A stretch of DNA of 64,000 nt from the NCBI GenBank assembly GCA_964017045.1, contig OZ024811.1, positions 15,581,312 through 15,645,311 on the forward strand. The letters run 5' to 3'. Every line of letters begins with the position of its first letter. Position 1 is the stretch's first letter. Below the pieces are notes generated by a model, which saw nothing but the letters and a program-made list of their open reading frames with translations, searched no databases and was not told the origin of the DNA. Source of the DNA: Omphiscola glabra (lineage: Eukaryota > Mollusca > Gastropoda > Lymnaeidae). The position numbers were made by a program, and so were the translations under genes. Below are positions 16,642 through 52,266 of this stretch, piece after piece.

Positions 16642-19044
16642 ATGAGTGCAAGGTTAATAAAGATGACTTCCAATTCAAGAGCTTCAGCGATAATCGTTGC
16701 TTGTAAACGGTACTATGTTGCTACCACAAACCTCAACTATGCTGGCAACAAACCATCATCTCCAAGTGGTCGTGAAGGTAAAAAATAAGAAAAATAATCT
16801 TAAAATCTTAAATTAATACAAATACTAATACTATTATTACTATTACTATTACTAAATAAAATTGTAGCCAATCTATGGACTGTGGTAGCCCACCGTTCGA
16901 CTTTCGCTAAACTATTACTAATATTAGTAAATCTATCTATGGGCAGCCAGTAATTAAGGCTTAAGGCAAGGGTAAGCCAAGGAACAGAACAAAATTAGAA
17001 GATCAACAAGTCAAATGGATTTATGAGAAGTTAAGTCTAAGTTAATGTGTGTTTTACTGTAGTTTACAATTTCAAATGCTTATAATTTACACAAAATAAA
17101 TATCTATAATAATTAATATGTTACAAATTTTGAGGAATTACAACAGTAATTCAGTAATAATAACAGTTCATTAGAAGGGCTTAAATCTTAAATACTGCAC
17201 GGTAGGCCTACAAAGTTAAAGGACTAGGTGTGCCTTTATTATTTTATGAAATAAGGGGTGAGGAGGGAGCAGTGGCGTAGCGAGCTTAACTCGCACCCGG
17301 GGCACAATACCTTTTGAGCGCCTCCCAATACCTTTTTAGCGCCCCCTCCCCTATTCAAAAACCATACAAATTATAGTAAAATATACCATTTGGCGCCCCT
17401 TTGTGAGTAGCGCCCGGGGCATGATGCCCCCCCTTGCCCCCCTTACTACGCCACTGGGAGGGAGTGCCATGGAAGTTTGTGCAAAATTTAGAATTTAGGA
17501 TGAAAAGTCCATTGCTAGTAGTGGCAGTGGTCTGTAGATTTATTCTCGTATCAGAGAATGGTTAGTTAAATACTCCTGCCTAATGCTTCAAAGTTGTCAA
17601 GTTTTTCCAGTCTGCAAAAGCTGGTTAAATAATTTTCAAACAAGTGAGATTTATGAATCATGACAATTACAGATTTTATTACCGGTACATAAATTTTCTT
17701 ATTTTGTGGAAGATTATTCAGTTATTCAGTCTATTTCATAAAATATTTTTAATTATATTAAATCTTTGTTTTTTTAAGTTTAAAAAAAAAATAATTTTAA
17801 CAGGGACAAAGACAAAAGATAGTCAAACTCCTCCTAAGAGAGAAGGTGAGCAAGACAAAAAACCAAAAGTTGCAAAGAAAGAAGGTGAACAAGACAAGAA
17901 AGCACCAGTTGCAAAGCCTGAAGAGAAAGGTTTGTATTTGTGGTTTTGATTTATCAGGCTATAAAAGTGATGCAACCTGGGGCATCTACACAGGGAAAGT
18001 GGGGTGGAAGAAATAGCTGTTTTGAATCTGAGTTGAATATGGGGAGAATAAAATCTCCCCTCCCCCAACTTTTACCTTCTTTCGAATTTCTCCATGTAAA
18101 ATATGGGAAAGGGAAAAATTTAATTGTTCGATCTTTAACAATTTTTAGTGGGGGAGTAAATTTGTTAGGAGGAAAAAAAGTATTTGTTAATTGTCTGGAT
18201 TAGACTCGGCATTGAACTCCAATTCTCTTGTTAAATTGCTCCATATTTTGCCCAAAACAGCCAAACAGCCTCCCAAAATACACATTTTAAGTATTAAAAT
18301 TTAAAAAAAAATCATAGGCTGATTATATTCATTTTTTGAATAGTCACTAAATTTTATAATTTGATTTGCTGAAAAATGTGAAGAATTATGGAGCAAAATT
18401 GTAATAGTTTGTTATCAATGTTATAACTGAATAGTCAACAGTGTTCAATTTTTGTATTAGTAATATTCATAGTGAACTCCTGCATTAAAAAAACAATACC
18501 ATCACTTGCATGACCTACATACAGACCCACATACAGATTTTACCAAGTCCAGTTCTAGGGGGGAAAGAGTGGGGTTGGCTTCCACCACTTGGTTTGGGGG
18601 GGGGGGGGAGATAGACACCCCTGGGTGCAACTATTCCATCATTTCATATATAATTGAATTATAGTTACACTAAGTCACTAAGCAATAAAAATAATTACGG
18701 TTCCATGTTTTCCCTCATTTTCACAATATATTTGAGAACATAACAAATTTATTTGTATACTAACAAATAGTTATTTAATAAATTAATAATGTGTAAAAGA
18801 TTTATTTTAACACTGTTGATCCACTGCATATTAAAATACCAAGGTGGCTGTGTAATTTAAATTTAGGCATTTGTGTGCATTTGTCATTGCTGTTCAACAT
18901 TAAAACATTATTACAATGTTACTTGTACTGTGAATTATGTAAAGAAAATTCATACATTTTCTTTAAATTTACTGTTATCAACTGGTGATATATATTTATT
19001 TTTTCTTTGCAGCCTCTGGGCAAAAACGAGATGCCAAGAAATAG
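16642..19044 (+). CDS. Lysine-rich microprotein gene A (97 residues, three exons)
   Basis: Exons 16642-16777, 17804-17929 and 19013-19044, joined by two phase-1 introns (GAAG|GTAAAA, TTTTAACAG|GG, AAAG|GTTTGT, TTTGCAG|CC). The first exon (MSARLIKMTSNSRASAIIVA...) ends ...PSGREG, matching the whole first exon of gene D (MSGREG). A second in-frame ATG is at 16663, and an in-frame TGA lies just upstream. Exon 2 is Lys/Glu-rich and carries a 13-residue tandem duplication (REGEQDKKPKVAK, then KEGEQDKKAPVAK). Exon 3 ends ASGQKRDAKK. The N-terminal extension is basic and free of acidic residues, as in mitochondrial presequences, but that is only compositional. Function unknown. Exons 2 and 3 are well supported; attachment of exon 1 rests on phase and the SGREG match. 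Confidence 0.65.
17270..17456 (+). mobile_element. hAT-like MITE, CAGTGGCGTAG family, in intron 1 of gene A
   Basis: A 187-bp element has ends CAGTGGCGTAGCGAGC and TACTACGCCACTG and a perfect 8-bp target duplication GGAGGGAG (17262-17269 and 17457-17464). The interior has CCCGGGGCACAATACCTTTT and GCGCCCGGGGCATGATG motifs shared with copies at 37.2 and 53.3 kb. Confidence 0.85.
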
Positions 19045-19706
19045 TTTGCCATTATTTAAGGAATGTGCATTTGTCTTTCTCACGAATTGTGTTTTGACTA
19101 TGTGAAACAAGGACACCCTTTTTTTTTATAGAATATAGAAAGACAGAACACATTCAGACAGCTGACAGAACACATTCAGACAGCTGACAGAACACATTCA
19201 GACAGAACACATTCAGACAACTGTAGCAAGGAATTAGTGCTCCTTTTATCTCTGAGATTAAAATATTTGCATTTTCTCATTTATTAAGTCGTCCCTCCCC
19301 ATTTAAGTCATGCCGCACCCCCACTCCCCTAAGTCGTGCCCCCCCCCCCCTCTTTTTTTACACAATAGCTCAGTTCGAAAAAATTGAAGCAATATATTAT
19401 ACCCTGTAATTAGGTCTATTTTTCATTTACTTTTCTTTAGCTGAAATGTTTATTAATTGTTTTGGATGTCTATAATAATATTTATTTATATTTATTGATG
19501 TCACTAAGTATTATTTATACTGATATGAAGCTGAATATCTTTTAGATACATTTTATCTGTCACTTTTATTTATGTTCAGTGTAAAGCTAATCTTTATGTG
19601 TTTGCTTGGAATTGAAAAACTGAATTCATAGAAAAATCAAGAACTATTTTATTATACACTCCAACACTTTATTAGATCAATGTATATACCTGTATTTAGT
19701 AATAAA
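19045..19706 (+). other. Probable 3' UTR of gene A
   Basis: Follows the gene A stop. AATAAA is at 19701-19706. It contains the short tandem repeat at 19137-19220. Confidence 0.4.
19137..19220. repeat. Tandem repeat of GACAGAACACATTCAGACAG
   Basis: About four copies of a 16- to 22-bp unit, with length differences between copies. Confidence 0.75.
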
Positions 19707-20119
19707 ATAAATGTCTTTCCTTTTTTATTTGTGTAATTGAAAAGAGAAAAATTAAAAACATAACCTATAAAATAAATAGAAATTGATTGAATTTGTTTAA
19801 TTTCCTCTTCTAAATTCTTTGTTTTATTTACTGTTCAAAATGTAACAAAAAATATTTTTTTATGTTGGATATTTTAATAGTGAGTCAATGAAATAGGGGA
19901 GCGAACTTATAATTGGTAAAGCATACACAGATTTGAACTATGTCCCTTTATTTTACTTTCAAATTGTGAAAAAAAAAAAAAGGAAAAACTTTAGTGTTTA
20001 CGTTTCAACATGTGAGAGTAACTAAAGAGTTGGTTTGTTTTTTAAAAATATATATATAGCTTTTTAAATTGGTGAGTTGTGAACTCGGGTGAATGTGGAT
20101 TTAATAAGTTAATAAGACC

Positions 20120-20312
20120 ATAGTTAGTGCCGCCCGGAGCAGGCCAAGATCTTTGCCGCCCGTGGTGAACTAATATTTTTTCCGCCGCTTCCAGGAAAAA
20201 AAGACCTTTATAGTTGTCCAAACATGCCACCCCTCTTTATAAAGAAAAAAAAAAAAAGCCGCACCGGATGGACCTCGCCCCCCCCCCCTCAGTACCTCCC
20301 TTTCCACGCCAC
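20120..20312. repeat. Degenerate hAT-like MITE remnant
   Basis: Begins TTAGTGCCGCCCGGAGCAGG and ends CCACGCCACTG. Similar AGTGCC(G/A)CCCGG...GATCTTTGCC remnants lie at 38.50-38.60 and 38.89-39.07 kb. No target duplication identified. Confidence 0.45.
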
Positions 20313-20594
20313 TGTTCAGTTATATTAGTTATATTGAGCATATTCCGGGAAGTCAGTCATAAAATAAATAAAATATAAGTACAAAGGTTTTTTAAAAACG
20401 GAAACAAATTTTAAAAAACAACAAAAAACACGGGAGATCGTTCCATGTTTACCCAATAGAGATAATGAGGGGGGGGGGGGGGGGAGACTGCAATAAGGTA
20501 AAAGGAAATAATTCCTTTAGTCAGGTTTTCCCATATTTTCTTTCAGGTATTCCCCACTAATGAGCGGCGTTTTGGACAATATTTAAAACCTTTT

Positions 20595-20625
<31 letters not shown>

Positions 20626-20880
20626 TTAAAATGTAGTGCTTTGATCAATTCGGTGATGTGTTATGGAACATGTGACTTTCGTTCATTCGGTGGCTCTTAG
20701 GCCATGACCTTGAGTCGTGTCACATGACCTATAGGGCTGAGGTCACTCATCGGCGCACACGTGGCAGGAAAAGCATGAAGGAGACATCCGAAATGTGTAA
20801 TAACGTTTCTAAAATAAAGTAAAAAGGGCTTCATATTAATGTTATTTCTTGGAATTGTGATTTCTGTCGTCTTTCTGTGT

Positions 20881-21129
20881 GACGCTGTCTTGTATTTGGA
20901 CTCAAGTGACGCTGTCTTGTGTTTGGACTCAAGTGACGCTGTCTTGTGTTTGGACTCAAGTGACGCTGTCTTGTGTTTGGACTCAAGTGACGCTGTCTTG
21001 TGTTTGGACTCAAGTGACACTGTCTTATGTTTGGACTCAAGAGACGCTGTCTTGTGTTTGGACTCAAGTGACGATGTCTTGTGTTTGGACTCAAGTGACG
21101 CTGTCTTGTGTTTGGACTCAAGTGACACC
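20881..21129. repeat. 27-bp minisatellite, about 9 copies
   Basis: The unit GACGCTGTCTTGTGTTTGGA plus CTCAAGT is repeated about nine times with few substitutions. Because 27 is a multiple of three, several long spurious reading frames appear on both strands. I see no splice or promoter evidence for a gene. Confidence 0.9.
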
Positions 21130-21733
21130 TATTGACATAAACATACAAATCTCTTGACATACCCACACCTCCTATTACTCGAAGTAAGTCAAACAAGAAA
21201 TCTCATCTTACAGCTACTACACGGTGGGGAATATATATACATATGTACATTGAGAGAGAGAGGGGGGGGAGGGAGTGAGTGAGGTGATGATCTAATTTTA
21301 ATCTAATAACATTATTGATAACAACCACTCTTAACTGCTAGTTTGTACAGTTCTAACAACACGTGTTAAGTGTTATACATTAGGTTAACTAGATTGTATT
21401 AAAGATGCCCTCCGTCATCGAATATTGTTTTTAAAATTGTAGTTAGGACCTCATTATAAAGTGATTGCAACGATTTGAATCCCGTTTGATGCCATTCTTC
21501 TCTATACTATATCTTAATCTCTCCACCGCGACCGAGCATTGGTCAGCACAATGTCCGTGTCATGGTCAGTACAACGGCTAAACATTATGGAGGCACGACA
21601 TGAAGAGTACAATGAGATCAGCTTAAGGTCAAGGCCGTTGGTTCTATTTCGGGACCACAACACCTACCCTCACCCACCCCCGTTTATGTCAACAATCACG
21701 GGAACCCACCCACCGGACTTGTAGTCCTGCTTC

Positions 21734-23196
21734 CAGGGCTGCCACTCACTTTTTTAAAATTTCCCAAGATTTTGTCAACAAATTTCCCAAGATTTCCCAA
21801 GATCATATAAATATATAAGAGTTTTCTTTAAAAGGGGTTTTCTATGTAGAAATTAATGCAATAATAGCTTGAATTAATGCCCCTGAAACTCGGGGTACAG
21901 TAATTGACTGAAGTTTATTTTAAATGACATTTAAAAAAAAATCTTTATCACATATAAGAAAAAAAAAATAATTTTGAAAAAGAAAATTATTAATTTATAA
22001 TCCAAATTCTCCATACCCACTGGAGTTAGGCTACTAAATTAAATATTACCTCCAAATTTTCTGGTAAAAAATATCATCTACATGTGTTATAGAAGTCCTT
22101 TGAAACAAACCTCACAGGGCTAATCAACACAAAAGTCTCTTTACAACTATTACAAGTGCAACAGGTTCATCATCAAAACATATTTTTTTCTTATTGTAAG
22201 CCTGTAGATAAGAATTGGGGTTTGCAAAGCAATAAAGCAGAATTTAATAAGAATAAGTTTAGTTAAAATGGATTGATATTATATGAAGAAAATAAGTATT
22301 TTTTAAATTGTAGATTTACATTATAATTATAATAATTTTTTTCAAACAAAATACTGTTTAAATGAACTTTTCAGCTATAATCCTACAACGTACCGGTATA
22401 CTTTTAATATCTTAATTACCTGTGTGTAAATGCACAACTATTTTTTTTCCAATTGATGAAAATTAGGCTGGATTTTTTAACAGATGCATCTTATCATAGT
22501 TTGAACACATTGTAGAAGTAATTGAAATTCATCAAATTTTACTATAGATTCTTGATTGAACACTATCGTTCCCTCTTTGGCTTGTACTGTTTTTCGTATG
22601 GTTACTAATGTCTAATAGCCTAATGATAAAGTTTCCGAGCCTACTGCCCCCCCCCCCCCCTTTTTTTTCACTAAATTCTATAATATTAATTGTCTATATT
22701 GATTTCCTTTGAGATTTCAAGATTTATTATCAGTTTATTTATTGTTGAGACTTTTCTATGCATATGGTATACAAGGTCAATTTGATAAACTTTCAACACC
22801 TGGATGTAATTTTTAGTATTCAATGTAAAAAAAAAAATTAAAAAAAAAAAAGAGAAAATTGGATTTCTTTAATTATTAACTTTTTAGTACTAACTTCAAA
22901 ATACTAACTTTAATTACAGAAGATTTCTTATTTATTTATGAATGGTTTAAAAAATTAAAACCAGAAAAGAGTTAAAACAAAACATTTTTCCTTGTTACTT
23001 TAAAAACTATTTTGCTTTATTTTCACTTAAATTTTATCACATATGTTGTTTGCGTTTTTTCAAAATATGTAAAAAAAATCTTCCCCTGTTAATATTTCCC
23101 AAGGTTTTGCCTGATTTTCAAAATTATTCCCCAGATCCCAATGGGGGTCGTGAATTCCCAAGATCTTGGGAAATTTCCCAAGGTGTGGTAGCCCTG
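21734..23196. mobile_element. 1.46-kb non-autonomous hAT element
   Basis: The left end is CAGGGCTGCCACTCAC and the right end is GGTGTGGTAGCCCTG, an imperfect terminal inverted repeat, bounded by a perfect 8-bp target duplication CCTGCTTC (21726-21733 and 23197-23204). AAATTTCCCAAGAT motifs lie just inside both ends. The AT-rich interior shows no transposase reading frame. It is much longer than the other MITEs here, so it may be an internally decayed or rearranged parent. Confidence 0.85.
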
Positions 23197-23659
23197 CCTG
23201 CTTCACGTCCTCACGACTCCACGAGTCAGTTCGACCTCGTGAGCTGCGGCGTGAACGCGTTAAGCCCTCGCCCTCTCTTCGGCGTTGCTGTGCGTGTTTT
23301 GGTTCCAGCCTTGAAAATGTTTTCTAACGTTCATCTTGAATTGTTTAAGGCCTGTAATTGACCTAAAAACAAGCACCCACCCCCAAGCCCCCCCCACCTT
23401 CCTTTTACACTCATGGCGCATCCATTCGTATAATCGCCAGTTTGCCTGCTATTTGAAAAAAATATAAAAAATTTGTGTAGTGTATGCTATGGATTTTTTT
23501 CCTTCCCTTTTTGTTTTTTTCTACATTTAACCACATAGATTTGGGGTTTGAAAAAAAAACGTTATCACTGCACTGAATGGCAGGTGATGATCCAGTATCA
23601 AACAGAAACTCGTCAATCTCCCCCCTAGGCAGCGAAGAGGTCACGACAAACAGTTTCGA

Positions 23660-23915
23660 CTTTTAAAAACAAGAACTCAGTACAGGAGCTCCTCATTCCT
23701 GCCAAAGACAATAAGGGACTGGAATAAGCTTCCAAAAGCAACAGTTGAGGCGACTACACTTGACACATTTACGGCTCTTGCCTTCTGTCTTGCAACCAGT
23801 GGATTATCACCTTGAAAACCACGCACATTAACATCGCGAACCCCTCTGAACCATAGGAGCCATAATGACCAATCCATTGATCGTGGGCCCTCAAAACATA
23901 GAAGAAGAAGAAGGT
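23660..23915 (+). pseudogene. LINE reverse-transcriptase C-terminal fragment with 3' tail
   Basis: A + strand frame near 23665-23780 reads RTQYRSSSFLPKTIRDWNKL and then PKATVEATTLDTF, the typical 'SFFPRTIRDWN.LP' ending of CR1-like non-LTR retrotransposon ORF2 proteins. A short 3' UTR ends in GAAGAAGAAGAAGG, a simple-repeat tail. It is 5'-truncated, as is usual for dead LINE copies. Confidence 0.6.
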
Positions 23916-26880: not shown

Positions 26881-26891
26881 GAACTCTTCAA

Positions 26892-32905: not shown

Positions 32906-32994
32906 GAAAAACACCTATGTCGTCAAGCGGAATAGTTTTTTGTTTTTTTCGCGATTCATGGGTCAGGCCTGCAATTGGAACCATTTTCCTTAAA

Positions 32995-33905
32995 CATGGA
33001 CGAAAGAGTCACGTCCCTTTTCTCAAACCTGTACAAACGAGTCGCGTCCCTTTCCTCATACCTGGACGAACGAGTCACGCCCCTTTCCTCAAACGTAGGC
33101 TAACGAGTCACGTCCCTTTCCTCAAATCTGGACCAACGAGTCACGTCCCTTTCCTCAAACGTAGACTAACGAGTCACGTCCCTTTCCTCAAAATTAGACT
33201 AGCAAGTTATGTCCCTTTCCTCAAACCTGGACTAACGAGTCACGTCCCTTTCCTCAAACCGGGACCAACGAGTCACGTCCCTTTCCTCAAACCTGGGCTA
33301 ACGAGTCACGTCCCTTTCCTCAAACCTGGACCAACGAGTCACGTCCCTTTCCTCAAACCTGGACCAACGAGTCACGTCCCTTTCCTCAAACATGGGCTAA
33401 CCAGTCACGTCCCTTTCCTCAAACCTGGACCAACGAGTCTTGTCCCTTTCCTCAAACATGGGCTAACGAGTCACGTCCCTTTCCACAAACATGGGCTAAC
33501 CAGTCACGTCCCTTTCCTCAAACCTGGACCAACGAGTCATGTCCCTTTCCTCAAACATGGGCTAACGAGTCACGTCCCTTTCCTCAAACATGGGCTAACG
33601 AGTCACGTCGCTTCCTCAAACTTAGACTAACGAGTCACGTCCCTTCCTCAAACCTAGACTAACGAGTCGCGTCCCTTTCCACAAACATGGGCTAACCAGT
33701 CACGTCCCTTCCTCAAACTTAGACTAACGAGTCACGTCCCTTTCCACAAGCCTGGACAAAAGAGTTATGTCCCTTTACTTAAACCTGGACTAACGCGTCG
33801 CGTCCCTTTCCACAAACCTTGACTAACGAGTCATGTCCCTTTCCTCAAACCTGGACGATCGAGGCACGCCCCTTTCTTAAAATCTGCGCTAACGAATCAC
33901 GTCCC
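32995..33905. repeat. 33-bp minisatellite, about 27 copies
   Basis: Units of ACGAGTCACGTCCCTTTCCT plus CAAACCTGGACTA. The 33-bp period keeps one + strand frame open from 32917 to 33630 (237 codons, repeating SHVPFLKPGLT). Downstream units lose one T (CCCTTCC) and break the frame. There is no start context, splice signal or codon pattern beyond the repeat, so I treat it as a non-coding array. Confidence 0.9.
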
Positions 33906-36976: not shown

Positions 36977-36984
36977 TATAAAAG
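36977..36984 (+). promoter_or_regulatory. TATA box of gene B
   Basis: TATAAAAG lies 90 bp upstream of the gene B start codon. Gene C has the same octamer 87 bp upstream of its ATG. Confidence 0.65.
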
Positions 36985-37066: not shown

Positions 37067-37415
37067 ATGAACAAGAAAGAAGGTAGGTTTTTGAAACTTA
37101 CTACAGACAGCTCATTATTATTTCATTGTATACCAAAGAGATTTGTGATAACTTTTGCGATATCCTAAATAAACTTATAAAAATATATTTTAAATCTAAA
37201 ACATGTACAGTGGCGTAGCGAGCTTAACTCGCGCCCGGGGCACAATACCTTTTTAGCGCCCCCAATACATTTTTAGCGCCCCCCCCCATTCGAAAACCAT
37301 ACAATATTATGGTAAAATATACCATTTGGCGACCCTTTGTGAGTAGCGCCCGGGGCATGATGTCCCACCCCTTGCCTCCCTCACTACGCCACTGAACATG
37401 TAGCTTAAGAATAAG

Positions 37416-37455
<40 letters not shown>

Positions 37456-40400
37456 CAACTTAATTCAAACGTGTGGCGTATTCTTCGGAGAAAAATCTCC
37501 ACGCCTTTACAACACAATTATATGTAGGCTTTTTAAAAAAAAAAAAAAAATTTATCCTTCATTGAACGTGCTGGTCGTCAGACAGAGCAAGCGACTTCAC
37601 TGATGGCTGAATCTGTTTAAAAACACATAACCTCGCTGCTGACATTCATATGCTAAAAAAAAAAGTTACTTTCAGAAAATGCTATCCTGTAAAAGTATGC
37701 ACTGTAGAGAGCTTATCACACTAGTGGGCAGTGGGGGTGGCTGGGGCTTATCACACTGGTGGGCAGTGGGGGTGGCTGGGGCTTATCACACTAGTGTGCG
37801 CAGTGGGGTGGCTGGAGCTTATCATACTGGTGGGCAGTGGGGGAAGCTGGAGCTTATCACACTAGTGTGCGCAGTGGGGTGGCTGGAGCTTATCACACTG
37901 GTGGGCAGTGGGGGTAGCTGGAGCTTATCACACTAGTGTGCGCAGTGGGGTGGCTGGGGCTTATCACACTGGTGGGCAGTGGGGGTGGCTGGGGCTTATC
38001 ACACTAGTGTGCGCAGTGGGGTGGCTGGAGCTTATCACACTGGTGGGCAGTGGGGGTAGCTGGAGCTTATCACACTAGTGTGCGCAGTGGGGGTAGCTGG
38101 AGCTTATCACACTGGTGGGCAGTGGGGGTAGCTGGAGCTAATCACACTAGTGTGCGCAGTGGGGGTAGCTGGAGCTTATCACACTGGTGGCCAGTGGGGG
38201 TAGCTGGAGCTTATCACACTAGTGTGCGCAGTGGGGTGGCTGGAGCTTATGGTGCGCGGGGCGGCCCTTGATTCAAACGCCCCCCCCCCCCCAAAGTAAT
38301 AAAAACTAAAATGAATTGAGAATACTCATACAAGCAATCGATATAATGTGTATAAAAAGGACGTAAAATGCCGCCCCAAAGTAAGCGCCACCCGGCGCCC
38401 GATGCCCCATGCCATTCTCTTCTTACGCCTGTGTTATTTAGGCTCGTCAAATTAATTGCTAACGTTACCCCAAATCTTGAGGTGGGGAGGGGGGGAGTGG
38501 CTAACCTAGAGTTAGTGCCACCCGGGTCGGTCAAGATTTTTGCCCCCCCACCCCTAAAAAAAAAACAACAACCTGAAGATGGCAAAAAATGCCGCCCCTG
38601 TATATAAAGAAAAAATTCTCCCCCGTGCTACACATCCTACGGTTGGGGGGGGGGGGGGAGAGGGTAATCCAAGCAAACTTCTATTTCCTAGGTAAGTGAA
38701 AGAAGGTGTCTGGTGTAACGGTAACGAAGGTAGGTAACAGCACCTGACAAGTAATCGGCAGAAGCGGCACTGAGCACGAAACTCTTGGCCGGTAACAGCA
38801 CCAGGCGTGGCCGCTCATGGAGAGCTGGACTGGCGCATCGGATTTCACTGGGTCCACCCCAAATCGTGACGGGTGGGGGCATTGACGTGGTTAGATTTAG
38901 TGCTCTCTAGTGCCCTCTGAGGAGGGCAAAGATTTTTGCCGCCCCCATTTACGAAATAGAACTCTGGTGTTTTCCGAAAATGTTACCCCCTCGATGTAAA
39001 GCAAAAAAAAAAAAACTTGCCAACCGGAGGTGGATCGCCTCTCCATTTACCACCCACCCTTGCAACGCCACTGCACTTACCGATCTTTGAGCAGAGAAAG
39101 GGCGTGCTTCATTGCCCTCTAAACCCCATCCATGCCCTTTGCGTGACATTGTGAAGATTTTTTTTTAAAAACCAAACAAATAAGAAAAGGGAATCGTGGT
39201 CTCGGGTAAGTAATGATAAGCAGTACACGCCCTTTCTACACTAACTGGAACTATTCAAACAGGGTCAAGGACGATAGAAAATGTTGATGAATTTAGTGGA
39301 TAAATGTGACCAGGCTTTCTGCGTATAGGGCGTACGTTGTTTTATGGCAGCGAAGTGGTGTGTTCGTTTGCACCGTAACGCAGTGTACATATGGATAGCA
39401 ATATCTTTACATCCCATTACTCCACTGTTGCAATGAAACGTATATGTATTATTACTGATGTTTCAAGAAAAAATCCTATGTTTTTTTTATTACCTCTGAT
39501 GTTTCAAATAGACGTGTTGTTTATTACCTCTGGTGTTTCAACAAAAAACGGTGCTGTTTATTACCTGTTGTGTTTCAACAAAATCCTATGTTGTTTATTA
39601 CCTCTGGTGTTTCAACTAAACATATGTTGTTTTTTGTCCACAGCCCAGACCAAAGCTCCCCCTAAAGGTGATGATAAGAAGCCAGCAGCTGCACCACAAG
39701 AAAAGGGTCAGTACCTTTTTTGTGTGTGTACATTGCGGTTTCACGGGCGGAGCTGCTACTATGATGACAATGGGTTCAGTCATGGGCGGAGCTGCTACTA
39801 TGATAATGGGTTCAGTCATGGGCGGAGCTGCTACTATGATGACAATGGGTTCAGTCATGGGCGGAGCTGCTACTATGATGACAATGGTTTCAGTCATGGG
39901 CGGAGCTGCTACTATGATGACAATGGGTTCAGTCATGGGCGGAGCTGCTACTATGATGACAATGGGTTCAGTCATGGGCAGATCTTGGATTTATCTTTTT
40001 TTTTTTTAAATGAGGGGGGTAGATTAATATCTATTAAAGATTTTACTACAATGTAGGGGAGAGTGAGTTAATGATAGCTAATCCGGGGACATTCTGAGCG
40101 TCGTGGGACAAGGGACGAAACTCGACGGGAACACGTGCCTAGTGCAGTTGTAGTCCGCATCTTAATATCCCAGCGCGCCGCCAGCCTGGTGCAATGACCG
40201 GTTTGGGGGGGGGGGGGGGGGTTGCAGAAGACGGGGACGTTTAATTTATATAACTTAACTAGGGCTTGACCGGGTGCAGTTGTTTTGTTTTTTTTTACAC
40301 CGGGTCCAGCTATTTTGAGAAAAACCCGGCGGATCCAAGTGTTAAAAGAGTTTAAGTTCTAATTTTTTTCTAAAATATGCAACGAAATCTGCTGCCCCGT

Positions 40401-41407
40401 GTCGTACGGAGATCGCATCGCCTTCGTCAACCGTCGTGTCAAGAAATAACTAACGGATCCCGGAATAGAGATGACGTTGTACAAAAAAATCCGTTGAGAG
40501 CGAAGATACTGTCGTTTATTTTACAGCAAAGCCTTAAGAAACAGCAGTCTCAATGCAACGAAAATAGCAACCTATTTACCGGAGTTCAGACATTACTCAT
40601 GATGTTCGCTCTGTGGTAGAAGTACACGAACAATATTAACACTGATTAATAGTCACCCCCCCCCCTGAAGAAAAATATATGCTTACCGGAGGTAATTGCA
40701 CGCTACTGGACCCTCTGTCGCTCACCCTAAATCTATCATAAACAAAGGGAAGTGACTCCCAATAAGGGGACCACAGAAGCACATTAGCCTTACCGGAGTT
40801 CAGAGGTCACGCATGAAGCTCGCTGCGTGACATACTTTTTTTTCAATTAGTACTATATAAGATAAAACATGTGGATTTGAGGAGGGGGTGGCGGAGGTTT
40901 TGAAGAGGAAACAGGGCGCACCAGAAGCAAAATATATATAAGAGACACGGCCAAACATACGTTAGCGTAGACTTAGACGGCACACTTACTTGTTAGTCTA
41001 GTTCGGGGGTGGGAAAACTATTGCTCACGAACCCATTGTGGCTTGCGTCTCCGTTTTGAATGGCTATTTGAACATAATAAAAGAATTAAAAGAATTTTTT
41101 AAAATGAAAAAGTAAAAAAAAAAAGGAACCTATAATTTAAATCTTCGATTGCAGATGTCACTTCTGTATGGTGTTCTTTCTCTTTTCCGGCGAAATCCCA
41201 ATTTTCTGGGGGTAGACATGATCCAATGCCTGTTACCTCTCGAATCTGGATTGCACCTACAAAAGTGTGTCCGCCCCTGGTTTAGTTAGTAATCCAAAAC
41301 AAAAACAATAAGATCATAAAAACTTTCAATTTGTATATTTTTTTATTTAATTTCTTTTTTTTATTGTTGTTGTTGCAGGTGGCAAGCAACCAGCAAAGGG
41401 AAAGTAG
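37067..41407 (+). CDS. Lysine-rich microprotein gene B (35 residues, three exons)
   Basis: Exons 37067-37082 (ATG plus four codons, MNKKE), 39644-39706 and 41379-41407, with two phase-1 introns (GAAG|GTAGGT, TCCACAG|CC, AAGG|GTCAGT, TTGTTGCAG|GT). The product starts MNKKEAQTKAPPKG, continues DDKKPAAAPQEK and ends GGKQPAKGK. Ten of 35 residues are Lys, with no Cys, Trp, Tyr or Phe, so it should be disordered and strongly basic. Exon 1 is exactly 16 nt, as in C and D. Intron 1 holds a hAT-like MITE and a 71-bp repeat array; intron 2 begins with a 39-bp minisatellite. AATAAA is at 41788-41793. Function unknown. Confidence rests on the match of phases and residues with A and C. Confidence 0.75.
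37208..37394 (+). mobile_element. hAT-like MITE, CAGTGGCGTAG family, in intron 1 of gene B
   Basis: A 187-bp copy, nearly identical to the one at 17270, with a perfect 8-bp target duplication AACATGTA (37200-37207 and 37395-37402). Confidence 0.85.
37418..37452. repeat. (AT)n microsatellite
   Basis: An uninterrupted AT dinucleotide tract in intron 1 of gene B. Confidence 0.85.
37711..38250. repeat. 71-bp higher-order minisatellite
   Basis: Two related monomers alternate: one with CACACTAGTGTGCGCAGTGG, the other with CACACTGGTGGGCAGTGGGG, each followed by GGCTGGAGCTTAT or GTAGCTGGAGCTTAT. The dimer is about 71 bp and repeats roughly seven times. The first monomer contains the perfect 12-bp palindrome CACACTAGTGTG. 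Confidence 0.85.
38500..39075. repeat. Cluster of decayed hAT-like MITE remnants
   Basis: TTAGTGCCACCCGGGTCGG at 38513 and TTTAGTGCTCTCTAGTGCCC at 38895 open two GATTTTTGCC-containing remnants. The second ends CAACGCCACTG near 39072. They resemble the 20.1-kb remnant. Confidence 0.4.
39742..39980. repeat. 39-bp minisatellite, 6 copies, in intron 2 of gene B
   Basis: The unit CATGGGCGGAGCTGCTACTA plus TGATGACAATGGGTTCAGT starts 36 bp after the exon 2 donor. One unit lacks three bases (36 bp). The 3n period leaves frames open on both strands. Intron retention of gene B would read straight through it. Confidence 0.9.
39981..41378. other. Rest of intron 2 of gene B
   Basis: A CACCCTAAATCTATC stretch near 40725 is a short trace of the CCTAACCTGAA repeat family. 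GGGGGTGGGAAAACTATTGC near 41002 resembles an old hAT-like terminus. No further exon recognised. Confidence 0.4.
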
Positions 41408-42238: not shown

Positions 42239-42432
42239 CAGAGGCGTAGCTAGTGTTTGGCGCCCGGGGACAAGATTCATTTTAAAGCGCCTCACTTTAT
42301 TTTTTCATCTCTCAAAACCCATTATTTTCATCAATAAAATTATATCAAAGCACATTTTGGCGCCCCTAGCTAGTCCGGCGCCCGAGGACATCTGCCAACA
42401 ACCCCCCCCCCTTTTTTCAAGTTACGCACCTG
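42239..42432 (+). mobile_element. hAT-like MITE, CAGAGGCGTAGCTAG variant
   Basis: CAGAGGCGTAGCTAGTGTTT...AGTTACGCACCTG, with flanks CTGCTTAG and CTGCTTTA (7 of 8). The interior carries GGCGCCCGGGGACAAG words related to the other copies. Confidence 0.7.
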
Positions 42433-44631
42433 CTGCTTTACTGCTTAGGCATTTAGACTTACAATATGTGACCATAGACATATATATCTCTATGTCTATG
42501 TATGTGACAGCTGTTCCGTCCACAAAACAGTAAATACATGCACTTGTGATTTCATGGTGAGTTGAACCAAAAACCCGTACCTCATCTATCCCTCCAGTGC
42601 CCATTTGATTTACATAAAATGGAGAACATTAGTACATATATTTTAAAAAAACCAGAAATCTTAAAAATTATACTTTTAACTTTAATACCCCCCCCCCCCC
42701 CCTCAGGCTATAATATGTGTGAGTCACCACCGTGAATGGTTTCTGGATCCGACACGAACATGTAGGCTTACAGTAACCTACACACATTGTTATCAGAGAC
42801 ATGATTTTTTTCCTTCTTTCTGACCTTAAAAAATAATGTGACCAGCCTTTGTCACGAGTCTCAAGTAATGAAAAGTGCGATTTTTCTGAGGAGGGCAAGA
42901 GGTTTTACTATGTCATAAACCTTACATGTCATTGATACTATACAGGTTTATTAAGAAAAGAGAGACCATGCAATTAGGCAACATACATGTCATTGAAGAA
43001 AATCATGTTTTTTTGTGTGGAGTATAAAAATCAACACACCATGGTAACGGTCATTTCGTAATACTCCTGTAGTGAAAGTAGTCATTGAAAACTGCATTCT
43101 CTCTTTTTTTAAATCCAACAATATTACATATTTAAAATAGCAATACTTTTGTTTCTTCTTTAAATCAAGTGAATTGCCAATACAGCTAATACAAGAAATA
43201 ACACAAAACACCAATGGTTGAGAGTCAAATCAGTTTATTTCTCATGTCACACTAACCTAATATGTGACTCCCCAAAGAAACAAAACAAAAGCAACAGCAT
43301 GGAATTAACACATCAACTATTTGTCTGTGGGCTTCTGGACACCAGTGGCTGGAATAAAAGTAAAGTAAATACTATTAGCTTAAGTTCATCAATTTTTTTA
43401 AATTTTCTTATTTTAATTTAATATTTAAAGTTGGACAGAAGAATAAAAAAAGTCATCAAATTTTAGGTCCAGCTAATTTATTTTAAAAAAGAACGATTTT
43501 TGTGAATTTATTTAAATTTAAATTTAGTAAATATTGAATAATGAAAGCACTGGTAAAAACCTGGTTCACAATAACTGGATTTAATTAGCTATTAGTTCAT
43601 TGGGACATTCATTCATGTGGAGTTAAAATCAATAAAATTACCACAATTAGTTTTTCTTTTTAAACACCTTTGAATTGGTTTTTAGCAATATGTTCAAGTT
43701 GTTGTTTTACTGATTCTAAAATATAATTTTTCTAAATATCCAGTCTTAACAAAGTGGAAAAAGATGATAGTTAAAATTAAAGACATCTGCAAAGCTGAAT
43801 CTGTTCTAACTTGACATCACCTGCAAATTTCAATTTTTCAATGAAAATTTAAAAAAAATTGTAATGAACTGGAATTTGAACAAGATACAAACAAAAGATG
43901 GCCAGGAAATTCATCTGTTTTTACAATCAATTAAGTACCAAAATTACATTCCTCAAAAAAATGTATTCCTTAATTATTATGGTACAGGTACAAGAAATTG
44001 GTTTGATATTTTTAAAAAAATGGCGTGAGTTTCGAGAATGTATATTTAAAATATGTAGCACTTTGACGCAAAGTTTTGAAAACCACTGCCTGTTCATTGT
44101 CAGTTCAAATGATGGCATTGAAGGTAATAAATTAAATACAATTTTTAACATACCGGTATTCAATTAGTCTGCTTAGATGGTTTAATATTTTATCTGATAA
44201 ATTATTTTTGTTTTAATATTCTTTTGTATTATTGTTATGTTTTTTTAAAATTTATGACAATACCACCTCCACCCTATTTTTGTTATATACAGTATCTTTT
44301 TGTGTGACTATTTTATTTGAATTCCACATAACGTGGGAAGCTGCTTGACAGAGCCAAATGCTGTAGCGCCAGCACTGAAACTTCTATTCAACATTTTATA
44401 CAGACCTCTCCTAAAATAGATTGATAACCTGACAGTTCAAAATGGGTAATTAATAAAGCCAATGACAGGAAAGTTTTTTGAAATTTTGACATGTTCTTTA
44501 ATACTCTGTGGTTTTATTTTGCAATTGAAATTTTGTTATCTTATCCTGCACATGTGTATGAAAGTGAGATGTCTAAAATATTTTGAGATGAATAAAATAA
44601 AACAAAAAATGGTAGAAATGGAAGAGTGCTA
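42433..44631. other. Non-coding region between genes B and D
   Basis: AT-rich with a C run near 42690. Short frames here lack splice support. Confidence 0.4.
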
Positions 44632-47600
44632 TTAAATAAATTTCTGAACTGATTTGCCTTTCTTTTCGGCTCCATCGGGTGGTGTTTTCTTCTCATGAGT
44701 CCCTCCATGTCCACCACAACATCCTCCTTTCTGGGCACAACCTGAGGGGCAATCCAAATTTTAAGTGATATGAAGTGATAATTTATGCAAACCGGTTTGG
44801 AATAATGTCAGTTATGAAACTACTTATTGTGACACAAGAGTTTATATTTAATATTAAGAGTTGTAAAAAAAAATAATAATAAGCCACTACATTTTTTTGG
44901 AAGTATTCACTGAAGGGGCTATTTTAAAACAAACCATTAAAGAAAAGCAACATCACTGTGAAGTACATATTATAACAAAGTGTGTTGGTGATCTAAAAAA
45001 AAATTATTCTGTGAACAGACCTGAGCTAGCATGATCTTTTTTTAAAGAAGACAAAAGATTACAACTTTTTCAAACATATATTGAAAATTAATTACTTTTA
45101 CTTTTTAAAAAATATTTTATTTTAATTTTAGTATCATTCATATAGCCTCATTTAAGGAAATCAATCAATGGTAAAAATAATATCACTTTGATTTACTGTC
45201 TCTTTTAACCCTTAGTTAAATAAAACAGCTAAACAACTGGGCACTCTGGCAGAAAAAAATGACATGAAGGTGAATCAAATTAGCTGATTTATCTGCTAAA
45301 AAGGATTTGCTGGAAAATAAGTGAAAACTCAAATTTTCCTTTCACCACTTTCCAAACTAAAAGGCAAAAAGGCAGAGGTTGAGTGTTTTGTTGAACATTT
45401 CCTTAATTAAGTTTTAAGCCTAAGCCTATCTCCCCCACCTCCAATTGCTCCTAACACTATTCCCCCACTCCCCATCCCCCCAAATTACCATCCAGTGCCA
45501 GCATTTGAAAAAAAAAGGTATCCACTATTATACTATTGTTACTATGTACCAAATTATTAATAGTTTGATGGAAATGAAATAGGAAGCTTTCGTTAATTTT
45601 AATTATTTTGTCATAAGATTTTTTGCATATTATTTGTTGTTTTCTTAAAAAAGTAGAATAGAATTAGCGATTTTATTTTTTTTAATTTAAAAGGCAAATT
45701 TAAGTTTAGGTACTTTGACACAAAATTTAAATATGGTCCGATTGCCATGAATGATACATCATTTTAAAGGGCTAGCTATAAGCTTTATAACAACACCAAT
45801 TTCATCTTTCTATCTTTTATAGAACTGGAGTTATTATTTTTTTTGTCGAATTTTTTATGCCCCTTATATAAGCTATATATTTGACCCAAAAAACTTGTGA
45901 CCCACTTTTGAATTTTTTCACTTTTTGACCCATAACTTTTTTAATTTCAAAGATAATGGAACCAAATTTTCAGTAGATATTCTCAATACAATATACAACA
46001 CAATGAACAACAAACGTTTGACATTATATCATAAATATTTATTTTGAAAAATGTTTTTGCAGAGAAATTGAAAAAAAATTATGTAAAAAAAATATTTTTT
46101 TTGTAAAATTATTATTTTTTACGTGAAAAAAAAAATGCAGGTCTATTACATTTTAAAGTAGCATCAAATCAAATTTATATTTTAATTATAGTCATTTTAT
46201 GTTCTGTAGGGAATTTGAAAATACCTGAAAAGAAAAATAATTAAAATGTTAAATTAATTTTTTTTAAATCAAAGGTCCATACAATTAACTAATTACATGA
46301 AATAAATCAGTGCTACTACTTTATTGATGGGACTCTGAAAAGAAATATAGAAATGTTATTAATAAATTATTCAAATATAACACCCTGAAAATAATAATAT
46401 TAATATCATTTGCCAGTATGAAATGAAGAATTTAAAATATTATGACTTAAAAAGAAAAAAACGGGGTACAAATATTATTTTTTTAAATGTACCGGTATTC
46501 TTTTATTCCAAATGAAAAAGTTAGAGGTTCATAAACTTAAAGTAATGATACCCAAGAAATATTAAATCAATGCTGTGTTAATTATAACATTGATTACATC
46601 TTGAGTCCCTGGAGTTGCCTGGTGCTCATTTACCTGTGGAAGGAAACAATCATTGTGTGTTACAATAGTTGTAGCATCAATATTGTTGGAAGGCAACAGG
46701 TTCTTGTTCTTGTTAACAGGCACTACAACTGGCTGCAACAAAAGATTTGGCTTCTATTCCAATTAGTTTCAATTCATTTCTAAAAAATAGAAAGCTTTTT
46801 TATATAATCTTGACACATATACTACAGACATGTTTACTCTTACAATTTTGGCGTACAATGAATGATTTTGAGATGTATACATTTATACCCGGTATACTGT
46901 ATGTTTATTTTTTACTATTAATTAAGATAATGTATTGAACGATTTTGTGATGGTGTTATGCGATTTTAAGAGTTTGAGGGTAAACAGGTCTGCATATAAT
47001 TTCATATATATGTATTGCAACCTTGTAAGAAACATAGTTGCTATCCTCTTGTTGGAAGGCCTCATCAAGAGCAGAAATGGCCACTTTCATGCCCTCTGTC
47101 TTGTACGGTATGCTACTATACAGATAGATAGCATAGCCATTCTTTTCACAAATGCGGCTGCATCCTGGGCAAAGTTTGCCAGATACAGGTTATAATCCTC
47201 ATTGTCACTGAAATTTCTAGAAATTACAAAGTCGAACTGAAAAGAAAAAAACAAAATAAAATTAACAAATTTGAAGACCATTTTTATTTATTAATTATTA
47301 ACTAGTCCTAGTCTTTTTAACTATAACTCTGTCTATATATAGTTTATAGTATAATTATAATTTATAATATATTTCAATTTTATAATAATTTATATTACAT
47401 TTCAATTAGCCTATACTTATACTATATTTATAACAATTTATATGATTGTTTATTTTGTTAATTTATTTACAAATTCAATAACATTAACAATCCTAGTAAT
47501 AAAATTAAAATAATAAACAATAAATGAATATAATAATATTAATTAAACGTAGAATAAATGACAAACCTACAAAAAAAAGTATTTTTATTATTAACTAATT

Positions 47601-48741
47601 AATACTAGTACTATTACTAGTATAATTACTATTACTTAGTCTAATTCTTAGTAGTATTACTATTACTAATACTAATATTAAGTATTTATTAATATTAGTA
47701 GCATTAGTATTACCTTAGTCTTAGTTAGTGTCCATAGTGAATTGAAGTCTGAAGAACTAATTTTATGAAATTAATTTTAATTCACAAATGACAGTAAATT
47801 AAATGCTTATGAAATTTTAGATTTACATTTGAATAGATACTTCAAATTTTGCTTTGATTTGATACAATTAACTGTTTAAAGTATTGAATAATACTAATAA
47901 CAAATACAGGTATTTCCGAAATATTCATTATATAGTGTCCGTCACTATCGATAACTGCACCGCCATCCCGAGGCGGGAAAATGGGCAAAAAGAGAATTTG
48001 GAGTTTTGGTCACCAATTTAGGGGATTTTTAGCGGTTACTTGAGCGCAGCCTCGTTAATTATAATAAGCTATAAAAATCAATTAATATATTCGAATATGG
48101 TACAGTATGTTCTTTTAGTGGTATCGTTTCTACAAAAAAAGTATTTAAGCTTTTATTCACCTACCGGTCGCTTTTTGTCAACAGCGTAGTGTAGCAGTAT
48201 AAAACTGTAATTAAACTTATAGTGTCGTGTGCAGAAACCAATCAGCGCAATAATGGTGACGTAAAACACAGCTTTTTTATGCAAATTTTGATGCTCGAAT
48301 TTATTAACCGATGTCAACAAAAGCATTCTTCAAAAAGTAGGTCAAAGGCTTATGCCTCATTTTGAGACATGCGCAGAACCATGCGCCGGCATGTATTGTT
48401 CTCCCATTAAGTTGAAATGACTCAACACCATTCTTTCATTGGCTTCTAATCTATGTAGAACATTTTCCACTAGGCCTACTCTGAGACTGTTTTTTTTTTT
48501 AAACTAACACATAATTTACATTATTATATTGATATTATGCGTAAATAAATTACAGCAAATAATTTCTAAGTAAAAAATCACACCCTACTCATAATAATAA
48601 TTAGTTAGTGATATTTTCAAATAAACTGACAACTATCAAAATCAAGTCATTTTTCAAGTACGGAAGCACATAAATGAATCTCATAAAATAACTGAGGTAA
48701 AAAAAAAATAACTACAGAACATTACCTTCTCTTCCTGACAT
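44632..48741 (-). CDS. Microprotein gene D, Cys/Gly/Lys-rich (41 residues, at least two exons)
   Basis: The first exon complement(48726..48741) is ATG plus four codons (MSGRE) and a phase-1 donor G|GTAATG. It is 16 nt long, as in genes B and C. The last exon complement(44632..44741) follows a CCCCTCAG acceptor and opens only in phase 1 (GCAQKGGCCGGHGGTHEKK). It ends PPDGAEKKGKSVQKFI before TAA. The CCGGHGG core offers three Cys and two His in a short span and could bind metal; genes A-C lack Cys. The intron of about 4 kb contains the exons of another, damaged gene, so the join is inferred. A middle exon may have been missed. TATA-like CTATATTTAG lies at 48791-48800. Confidence 0.55.
46192..47236 (-). 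pseudogene. Frameshifted or decayed gene inside the intron of gene D
   Basis: Three splice-bounded segments in consistent phase 0: complement(47022..47236), complement(46634..46732) and complement(46192..46224). Acceptors are strong (CTTTTCAG, TTTTGTTGCAG, TTTTCTTTTCAG). The first starts FDFVISRNFSDNEDYNLYLA in one frame and ends NGYAIYLYSSIPYKTEG...SNYVSYK in another. It is 215 nt long, one short of a multiple of three, with the shift near an AAAA run at about 47140. The second encodes VVVPVNKNKNLLPSNNIDAT and more, and the third VFSNSLQNIK then a stop. No start exon was found, so it is 5'-truncated or incomplete. Family not recognised. A one-base assembly error in a live gene is the alternative. 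Confidence 0.6.
47300..48725. other. Rest of the gene D intron, AT-rich
   Basis: A stretch rich in TACTATTA words runs from about 47580 to 47720. No exon of gene D or of the nested gene was recognised here. Confidence 0.4.
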
Positions 48742-49100
48742 AATGTGGTAGGTTGAAATAATGTGATAGAGTGAGTGGCCTAACGTTTAACTAAATATAG
48801 CTTAAAGCCTAAAATACGAATCGATCGTTGAAGACAGCAGCTGTTAACAGTTTTCTTTGAACCAGGTCATCATCGTCTGCTATTTGTAATCGACTACACG
48901 AAGTATCAAGAAATCGGGATTCGAGATAATCGCGAATATTGTCTTGCAATATTGTAGAAAGGATCGTAATAAAATTAATAATTATTACCCCTGTGAATTC
49001 TCAATCATGCTTAAATTAATTAAAGAAACTAACTGGGAAAGACTTGATTTTAAACACATCTCACTTATACTTCATACGTTAATTTAGGGATATTGAGTCT

Positions 49101-49360
49101 AATGGTACCCGGGTGCGAATGGCGGCGCTGCGTGTCTGGGTCATATCTCTATGTCTATGGTCTGGGTCCATTTTGACTAATGCCAATGCTATTCGGATGT
49201 CATTTGTGGTAGTTTCTTTTAGTCTTAGTTAAACTGAAGAATTAAGTTTACAAACTTAATTATCTTTCATTTGATACCTCAATTTGTCTTACAAGCCCAA
49301 CAATAATATTTTAAATAGTTTTTTAATCCCAACCTCTCACTTCTGGTACCCGGGTACCAA
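49101..49360 (+). repeat. Dispersed repeat with TGGTACCCGGGT ends, copy 1
   Basis: TGGTACCCGGGTGCGAATGG on the left and CTGGTACCCGGGTACCAATA on the right form a short inverted repeat. The interior ATTTGTGGTAGTTTCTTTTA...ATCTTTCATTTGATACCTCA recurs at 60.15 kb (+) and, inverted, at 55.7 kb. Confidence 0.6.
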
Positions 49361-51007
49361 TAGCCACTTCGTTTTAAAATACAATCTACCGGTATTAAGA
49401 ACAAGACGTATGGCAAGTTCTACCGGCGGTATACATAATACACAAATTTTCCCGCTTAATTACTGCTGATGGGCTATCTACTATAAATACTAAAATACTT
49501 TATCAATAGCAATACCAAATTATTCTTCTTTTTTTTAAAAAAAATTGTAATAAATGGAAATTTGTTTTGTTAACAAGTAACATTTTATACATTCACTTCC
49601 AGTAAGTAGAGCCTATTTTTTTAAATACAGAAACTATCCATATTGTCACAACTATATTGTAAATAGTAGTGATTTATCAAATAGGAGGGGAAGAACGCAT
49701 ATAAATTATATGATATAAAGGGGAAAAAAATTAATCACTATCGATCCTCTGGGTGATTTCGGTTGGGTGGGATTTAATTGATTTATCCAGGCAATGTGGA
49801 AAAAACAAGAATGTGGGGGCCACCATCATATTTGATGCAAAATAATTAATATTACATCGGGCTCCACTTTTGCTTGCGACGGCCCTGGATGCATGGTGCA
49901 TCCTGCAACATTTTTATTTAAAAAATGCCTTATTTCTGTATATCACAAAAGAGCAGTAGTAGAAGTACGTTTATTTGCGTTACTCTACCGGTAGCTTAAC
50001 TTAAGCTTTCTCGTTAAGTATTTAGATAGGCTTTTGATTATTGATGAGAAATAATTCCCACAATAGTTATATATATTATAATTTATAGTGATACTAAAGC
50101 TAATTAGGGGTTCCAAATGTTGCACACCATTAGAATATTTTCATTAAAGTTTACCGGCTATTTGAAGAAAACATTTTCGAGCTTCAAATAAATTTAACAG
50201 TAGTGTCATTCTTAAGATCCTATTGGGTGGAAGTGCTGCTGGCTATATATTTGTGCATCACTACAAGTTACAAGATCAGCGCATGCGGGTAGTCTTCATT
50301 AACAAGGGGGCACCCACCCCGGTACATTATACCGTACTATGTAAATCTAATTAACATGGCAGTGGATACAAATCTTCCAAAATTTCAGCTACGGGGGAGG
50401 TATATTTTCTTAAGATGGTTAACATCAATCAAATACCCATTAATTTTCAAATACAAATAGTTCTCTCAAGTGCTATAACCATTGTTATATTTAAATGATC
50501 AACAAATTGATTATGCTTTTTAATATAAGTGATTTGCCAAATTCACTGATGATAATTCCAATAGGCTTAGGTCGTGTCTAAGCACGTCCAGTGTTATCTA
50601 AATAAAGTCTGGATGTCACCACAGATGACCATCTATGCTTATCTAAAAAAAATAATATGCTATCAGCAATCCACAGGCTGAGTAAGCTGTTCTTAGAATT
50701 TATTGTAAGAATAGTGCAGCAGCTTCCAGGCTAATAGGGGATAGCTAGGTAACTGTTCTGCAACATAACATAAGAATTTACACACATAACATACAAAATG
50801 AAACATAAAAAGGATTACATTACAACATCATTTTAATGTCAATTTTTTTTTTAAAAAAAAAGTTTTAAAAAAAAGTTAAATTAATGTGCTGACTGCACAA
50901 CATTGATCGAGGTAAAGTAGTGTCAGCATACGATCAATGACCATGGACGCAACTGACTATGAGTCATGAACAAGATGAGAGATGAAGTGTCCATCAGGGG
51001 CGTCTAG
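49361..51007. other. Non-coding, 3' flank of gene C
   Basis: No exon recognised. A minus-strand AATAAA near 50699-50704 could end gene C. Confidence 0.4.
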
Positions 51008-52266
51008 CTATTTCTTGGAGTCTTTCTTGCCACCTGCAATCAAATAAAATGGTTAGAGATACACTAATAAATTCTATTCAATTTTAATTTGCTGCCAATA
51101 ACCTGTAAATTTCAACATTTTAATTAATGCACTTGTAAAAAATATATACATTTCTCAAGGACATGGACTGGTACTCAAAGTTTGTGTTAGGTAATGTCAT
51201 GTATTAAAAAATGAGGACAGGGACAGTTACAGCATGCAGATTTTAAAGGATATCTGTCTGCATTTTAATAATTACCTTTCTCTCCAGCTTTAGAGCCCTC
51301 CGTTTTTTTGTCATCTTTCTTGGGCTGTGAACCCTTCTTGTTTCCTGTGGAACAAAAATGAATATGCCTTACTAATTATGGCTAGGAAACATCCATGAGG
51401 CTTTTCTTATCTTGAAACTAAATTTCAAACCTCATGTCATAATTGTGAAGTCACGTCTAAGTCCATTAGACCAAAGGGAGTTAACAGTTAGTTAAAACAT
51501 ACTTTTATAGCAGTTGAGAAGGTTCTGATAACTCTACCAGAACCAAACAATTTCTTGAATTAGAACTTAAAAGGCAACTGAAACTGAATAAGTTCCGTAT
51601 TCTGACATTTCTAGAGTTGGCAGCAAGATATTTTTTAAATTGGAAGCCAGGAGGCGGTTACATGTATTTTGTAGCAGTTGCAGAATATAACCCGAACGGC
51701 GATGATAAATACATATCAGTTGTTGAATTAACGGTCTCTCTATTTAGAAGTGTCACACTTATAAGTTTACTGTTTAGTTGTTTTTGCCAAGACACATTCA
51801 GAAAATGTGAGAAATGCAGAACACACTACTAATGATCCTGAACAATTAGATGGCTACATTAAAAAGGTATTACAACTGCAATAGTAAGTCTTCATGACAT
51901 GCGCAGACCTAACCTTTCTCGGGCAACTGAAGGGGGGGGGGGGGAAGATGTTTCAGACATAAAAAAAACGGATGCCATCTTAAAATTGCATTTAGGCAAC
52001 GTTTGATAAACTAAGCAACATTTAAATACAAGTTTAACGTTCATTTATTTCAAAATGATGCATTTATCAAATTTGTACAGCGGCATTGGCCACACTACAG
52101 CGGCATATTTTCAGCGTTAATTTTCCTATCTTTTATAAGAGACGAGACGCGCTCTCCTACCCCGAAACACGCACCGCAGTGTTTTAAAAATCTTATGCAA
52201 GGATAAGCGCAATATCTGTTAAAGCGTGCATAAAAATAAATTACACTTACCGTCTTTACCAGACAT
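51008..52266 (-). CDS. Lysine-rich microprotein gene C (36 residues, three exons)
   Basis: Exons complement(52251..52266), complement(51276..51344) and complement(51008..51033). The junctions are GACG|GTAAGT, TTCCACAG|GA, AAAG|GTAATT and GATTGCAG|GT, all phase 1. Exon 1 is 16 nt (MSGKD). Exon 2 reads NKKGSQPKKDDKKTEGSKAG then EK, and exon 3 reads GGKKDSKK before TAG. Thirteen of 36 residues are Lys; there are no aromatic residues and no Cys. The layout, the DDKK core, the EK-G junction and the GGK...K end match gene B (DDKKPAAAPQEK, GGKQPAKGK). A TATAAAAG box lies 87 bp upstream. A short, highly charged, probably disordered protein; nucleic-acid or chaperone-like roles are only guesses. Confidence 0.8.

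Follow-up and report, generated by a model that had tools for sequence, protein, structure and literature searches.

The analyzed window comprises 64,000 nucleotides of the Omphiscola glabra genome (assembly GCA_964017045.1, contig OZ024811.1, positions 15,581,312 to 15,645,311 of the forward strand). Four genes for small lysine-rich proteins, herein referred to as A, B, C, and D, were predicted in this window (Table 1). The original prediction supplied only the outer ends and the first-exon peptides of these genes; the exon joins were rebuilt in the present analysis. Each of the four genes has three coding exons. When the exons were re-read on their own strands, all eight introns were found in phase 1 (after the first codon base), in agreement with the shared plan that had been claimed, and all the frames are open and end with in-phase stops. 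The other structural claims were also borne out by the rebuilt models. Thus, B, C, and D have 16-nt first coding exons for MNKKE, MSGKD, and MSGRE, respectively; B and C share DDKK, an EK-G junction, and a GGK...K terminus; and A follows the same plan with a doubled GEQDKK core and a longer first exon, which ends with SGRE-G in the same phase as MSGRE-G of D. A tandem repeat was found inside exon 2 of A (17836-17916). The predicted proteins contain 35 (B), 36 (C), 43 (D), and 97 (A) amino acids, and the masses calculated for unmodified B, C, and D are 3,659, 3,793, and 4,326, respectively. Because A and B are located on the forward strand and C and D on the reverse strand, these genes form a cluster and not a one-direction tandem array.

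Table 1. Coding exons of genes A to D and candidate promoter and polyadenylation signals in the window
Feature	Position	Strand	Length (nt)	Remarks
Gene A exon 1	16642..16777	+	136	last 13 nt (16765-16777) encode SGRE and the first base of G; phase 1; donor gtaaaa
Gene A exon 2	17804..17929	+	126	doubled GEQDKK core; phase 1-1; acceptor purine-rich
Gene A exon 3	19013..19044	+	32	(A)SGQKRDAKK, stop
AATAAA, possible polyadenylation signal of A	19701..19706	+
TATAAAAG of B	36977..36984	+		about 90 nt upstream of B ATG
Gene B exon 1	37067..37082	+	16	MNKKE
Gene B exon 2	39644..39706	+	63	(A)QTKAPPKGDDKKPAAAPQEK
Gene B exon 3	41379..41407	+	29	(G)GKQPAKGK, stop
TATAAAAG of C	52353..52360	-		about 94 nt upstream of C ATG
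Gene C exon 1	52251..52266	-	16	MSGKD; donor gtaagt
Gene C exon 2	51276..51344	-	69	(G)NKKGSQPKKDDKKTEGSKAGEK
Gene C exon 3	51008..51033	-	26	(G)GKKDSKK, stop
AATAAA, possible polyadenylation signal of C	50699..50704	-		about 300 bases past stop
Gene D exon 1	48726..48741	-	16	MSGRE; 14 of 16 bases as in snail TMA7 exon 1
Gene D exon 2	44658..44741	-	84	(G)CAQKGGCCGGHGGTHEKKTPPDGAEKK; GC donor
Gene D exon 3	43317..43348	-	32	(A)TGVQKPTDK, stop; pyrimidine-rich acceptor
AATAAA of D	43234..43239	-		77 nt past D stop

Chance expectation and kinship among the four genes

A degenerate first-exon pattern, drawn up after the four genes had been seen, has four matches in the 264 kb that include the window and its surroundings, and all of these matches are A to D. 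In 300 second-order simulations of equal length, the same pattern was matched 0.037 times on average and once at most, which bears out the earlier claim that chance was unlikely. The strict form MSG[KR][DE]G was found twice in the 264 kb (C and D) versus never in 300 simulations. Judging from the sequence, the four genes probably represent a real cluster.

The middle exons were compared with 476 segments of the window having phase-1 splice sites at both ends; exon 2 of A is not among these candidate segments. Exon 2 of B is the top non-self match for exon 2 of C, A, and D, and its own top two matches are exon 2 of D and of C. An unrelated segment outranked exon 2 of both C and D when exon 2 of A was the query, and unrelated segments outranked exon 2 of C when exon 2 of D was the query. 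In a tblastn search of the window with no low-complexity filter and no composition correction, B has exon 2 of A, C, and D as its first three non-self matches; for C, the top such match is an unrelated lysine-rich place. In the 264 kb, the matches of B are ordered as A, one unrelated place, D, and C.

Composition-keeping shuffles, with p-values uncorrected for the number of tests, supported kinship for the middle exons of B and D (0.008), A and B (0.037), and B and C (0.059), and for the last exons of A and C (0.006), B and C (0.007), and A and D (0.0095). Additionally, among 1,908 candidate phase-1 last exons in the 264 kb, those of C and D rank second and third in similarity to the last exon of A. 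B is tied to the family via its middle exon and the last exon of C, not via TMA7, the protein discussed below. The four genes look related, with kinship demonstrable for some pairs only.

Proposed relation to TMA7

TMA7 (translation machinery associated 7) is among the most conserved small eukaryotic proteins. Its N-terminus is MSGREG, and the TMA7 first exon was therefore examined in the same genome (745 Mb, including the window). The TMA7 gene was found on C7, with coding exons of 16, 56, 88, and 35 nt and introns in phases 1, 0, and 1. Exon 2 opens with GTGGCAAAAAG directly after the acceptor, so the first intron is in phase 1. Exon 1 (ATGTCCGGTAGAGAAG) has 16 coding bases followed by a GT donor and is the sole MSGREG exon found upstream, 7.7 kb before exon 2. 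The last intron, also in phase 1, is followed by (T)SGGIKKSGKK. The spliced protein has 64 amino acids, matches the Pfam family PF09072 (E 7.7e-29, 100.7 bits), and is 100% identical to a Lymnaea stagnalis protein. Its length is strongly conserved, with 64 amino acids in 98 of the best 120 of 938 relatives.

The original prediction matched the four genes to no known family, and this claim is overturned by the comparison with TMA7. A 16-nt first coding exon that yields MSGREG across a phase-1 intron was found exactly in D and, as MSGKDG (a conservative change), in C; in A, SGREG closes a longer exon 1 in the same phase as exon 1 of TMA7. In all four genes, the first and last introns agree in phase with those of TMA7; the short basic tail past the last intron may be a further TMA7-like feature, with support that differs among the genes (see below). 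The proteins also resemble TMA7 (PF09072; CCDC72) in being small and lysine-rich, with pI values of 9.0 to 10.0 versus 9.9.

A pattern for exon 1 with its donor was drawn to cover TMA7, C, and D, excluding AGY serine and CGN arginine codons. This pattern was found three times in the 745 Mb, namely in TMA7, C, and D, and its reversed control was not found. The base-composition model gives a chance expectation of 0.61 matches genome-wide and of 0.00005 in the window; the weight thus rests on both extra matches lying 3.5 kb apart in the cluster.

In similarity to the last exon of TMA7, the last exon of A ranks first among the 1,908 candidates, that of C joint third (with one other), that of D joint fifth (with two others), and that of B 42nd. 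Three of the four are hence among the seven most TMA7-like candidates, ties counted. Shuffles supported the likeness of this exon for A (p 0.0018) and D (p 0.021). Global alignments to TMA7 without exon 1, over three gap settings, gave p 0.005-0.046 for A and 0.016-0.074 for C.

These data are consistent with A to D being eroded paralogs of TMA7, a reading that we rate at slightly better than even. The four genes would stem from a single TMA7 gene copy or from several, in which both ends were preserved (the 16-nt MSGREG exon at the start and a short basic exon at the end) and the conserved middle part was shortened and rewritten.

A number of results weigh against descent from TMA7. No Pfam family was found for A to D at E up to 10, and the PF09072 cut-off of 27 bits was not reached; by Pfam score, the four proteins are not TMA7 members. 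The conserved TMA7 core (KKKPLKQPKK ... FKQKQKEEQK) is absent from all of them, as are GKKKPLKQPKK and the EDMAFKQKQKEEQKALKEAAVKAAGKGPL core, and B, C, and D have only 35 to 43 amino acids versus 64 in TMA7. The middle exons resemble TMA7 in composition only (shuffle p 0.18 to 0.96), and the likeness of the last exon is not significant by shuffle for C (p 0.10) and B (p 0.54). Past exon 1, B (p 0.24-0.31) and D (p 0.53-0.82) are unlike TMA7 in the global shuffles. When TMA7 was used as the query in the 264 kb, four unrelated low-complexity places outranked or equaled exon 2 of A.

The gene structures also differ. TMA7 has four exons versus three in A to D, and its phase-0 internal intron was not found in them. 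Exon 1 of B encodes MNKKE and has no TMA7-like start, and in exon 1 of A the residue preceding SGREG is Pro, not Met. For TMA7 itself, we infer that exon 1 is joined to exon 2 across the 7.7 kb. The second intron of D is a weak GC-AG intron, its donor scoring 2.6 bits versus 5.6 to 10.3 in the other seven introns when a donor matrix is applied.

The same side of the balance holds some comparisons within the family. In the 264 kb, unrelated low-complexity places top the non-self lists of exon 2 of A and of D, ahead of family members. In the shuffles, the middle exons of C and D (0.69), A and C (0.55), and A and D (0.21) and the last exons of A and B (0.37), B and D (0.17), and C and D (0.09) are no more alike than their composition. 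The claim of a related microprotein cluster is therefore supported more firmly for some pairs, such as B and D by their middle exons, than for others, such as C and D by theirs.

The middle exons that are unlike TMA7 beyond composition, the start of B, and the lack of a Pfam match would also suit a family of disordered, lysine-rich microproteins that is confined to this lineage and has an origin of its own, as would B and C, which have no aliphatic or aromatic residues except alanine, Met1 aside. The TMA7-like ends would then be convergent (short, basic, and rich in S, G, and K), or only exon 1 would have been captured from TMA7 by exon shuffling, and the function would be unrelated to that of TMA7 (binding to chromatin, RNA, or membranes, or a shielding role like that of chaperones). 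Against such an origin stand the close spacing of the C and D first exons (apart from TMA7 itself, nothing else in the genome matches the TMA7-type pattern), the agreement of both the first and last intron phases, and the high ranks of the A, C, and D last exons; we therefore regard it as rather unlikely.

A further alternative is that only part of the set works: C and perhaps B would be real genes, and A and D would be copies in decay or exon-like pieces joined by chance. This fits the GC donor of D, its 4-kb first intron containing other coding-like debris, and the weak points of A, namely the purine-rich acceptor and the weaker donor of exon 2. Promoter signals point the same way. No TATA[AT]A box was found within 500 nt upstream of the D ATG, and the TATA boxes of A lie at -12 and -157/-159. 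For D, the alternative to the GC splice is read-through, which leads to an early stop, and its last exon (43348-43317) was picked from among many candidates. The open frames with in-phase stops in all four genes, the second and third ranks of C and D against the last exon of A, and the exon 2 matches of A, C, and D that head the window list of B make this alternative improbable.

Two joins involving exon 1 of D were tried and rejected. The idea that it belongs to a genuine TMA7 copy within the window was dropped, since tblastn found no TMA7 core exon there, and its join to the debris at 47236 gives a stop after six codons. This debris (47236-46600, reverse strand) lies in the first intron of D and on the D strand; it consists of coding-like pieces (NLYLANFAQDAAAFVKR..., IPYKTEGMKVAISALDEAFQQEDSNYVSYK, LLPSNNIDATTIVTHNDCFLPQ), which are separated by a frame break and have splice-like edges. 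Nothing in it exceeded a Pfam cut-off, and it could represent a separate gene or a pseudogene.

Protein searches of the snail genome with C, D, and B retrieved only their own middle exons, and the search with A retrieved two of its own exons (1 and 2) and, in addition, a single weak match on C14 (E 5.5). Thus, each gene is single-copy at the sensitivity used. The first-pass candidates were few (1 for C, 8 for A, 1 for D, and 1 for B), so distant paralogs could be missed. In the protein collection, no relative of D was found, although TMA7 of Lymnaea and Bulinus is present there. An alignment of A to D, with A shortened and given a Met, yielded 8 candidates, none of them at E up to 10. If small multi-exon genes of this kind go unannotated, such empty protein searches are to be expected, and they are not evidence against orthologs. 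In the literature library that was searched, nothing was found matching the peptide strings of A to D, a snail translation machinery-associated protein 7, or gastropod lysine-rich microproteins.

Promoters, predicted properties, and neighboring features

The promoters of B and C share the 10-mer ACTATAAAAG, located at -92 in B (36977, forward strand) and at -96 in C (52360, reverse strand), and both genes may be driven from TATA-type promoters. Heat-shock elements were not found in 500 nt by one simple pattern.

The C promoter also contains the palindromic GTGCGCAC at about -154 (52420-52413, reverse strand), which presents a metal-response core on both strands; the background rate of such cores is 0.19 per 500 nt. 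Gastropod metallothioneins start with MSGKG or MSGRG. A metal-response family derived from these proteins, in which the C..CC..H..H stretch of D would bind metal, might account for such a start, for the three Cys and two His residues in exon 2 of D, and for the single palindromic TGCGCAC core at -153 of C. Biomphalaria metallothionein has a palindromic element at -127 (PMC5578137). Unlike the metallothioneins with their cysteine-rich metal-binding domains, A to D are not cysteine-rich: the translations of B and C contain no Cys, that of A one in 97 residues, and that of D three in 43. A single core is near background, and the first six residues of D are those of TMA7; a metallothionein origin is thus very improbable.

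The residue composition of B and C, with a pI of about 10, makes a folded core improbable, and both proteins should behave as basic chains without fixed structure. More generally, A to D would be lysine-rich disordered microproteins that share common descent and are transcribed and functional.

The original yeast study reportedly linked TMA7 to the ribosome. Little was found in the literature on the job of TMA7; human TMA7 has no match in PDB at E up to 0.01, and none of the 87 stretches flagged as TMA7 in viral contigs was confirmed. TMA7 is described as a translation-machinery-associated protein named by mass (PMC11847360), and in one human study it is reported to interact with UBA2 and to affect autophagy (PMC10086756).

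If A to D descend from TMA7, they could, like TMA7, use a basic disordered chain to contact ribosomes or RNA. Without the charged central core of TMA7, they would serve as partial ligands, adjusting the occupancy of TMA7 or competing with it. Our confidence in such a role (ribosome or RNA contact, TMA7 modulation) is lower than in the descent. MicroProteins are small proteins that derive from larger ones and regulate them (PMC7534434). Shortened TMA7 relatives that modulate TMA7 would fit this description; unlike for microProteins, no interaction domain was identified in A to D, and TMA7 modulation is a proposal.

The fullest version of TMA7 descent appears quite unlikely. In this version, a pond-snail lineage reshaped TMA7 into several clustered microproteins, inducible and disordered throughout, which have nothing left of TMA7 but its two ends and compete with or modulate TMA7 on the ribosome, D having gained a Cys/His stretch and A a basic targeting-like N-terminal extension. 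More generally, natural relatives with the TMA7 ends and no middle would reveal which part of TMA7 bears its function. The cluster also suggests how proteins of 35-43 amino acids with 16-nt first exons can go unannotated.

The N-terminal stretch of A, MSARLIKMTSNSRASAIIVACKRYYVATTNLNYAGNKPSSP (16642-16764, forward strand), is basic and has no acidic residue, as in mitochondrial presequences; an in-frame stop is located just upstream. Elsewhere in the window, an 860-codon open frame was found at 10070-12652 on the reverse strand. It is apparently coiled-coil-rich, has sub-threshold Pfam matches only, and may resemble proteins of the QRICH2/C16orf96 type. Minisatellites were found at 20879-21126, 32985-33905, 39741-39979, and 59211-59780, with units of 27, 33, 39, and 81 bases. 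These units are multiples of 3, and the long open frames in the minisatellites are probably spurious. The array at 39741-39979 begins about 35 bases past exon 2 of B.

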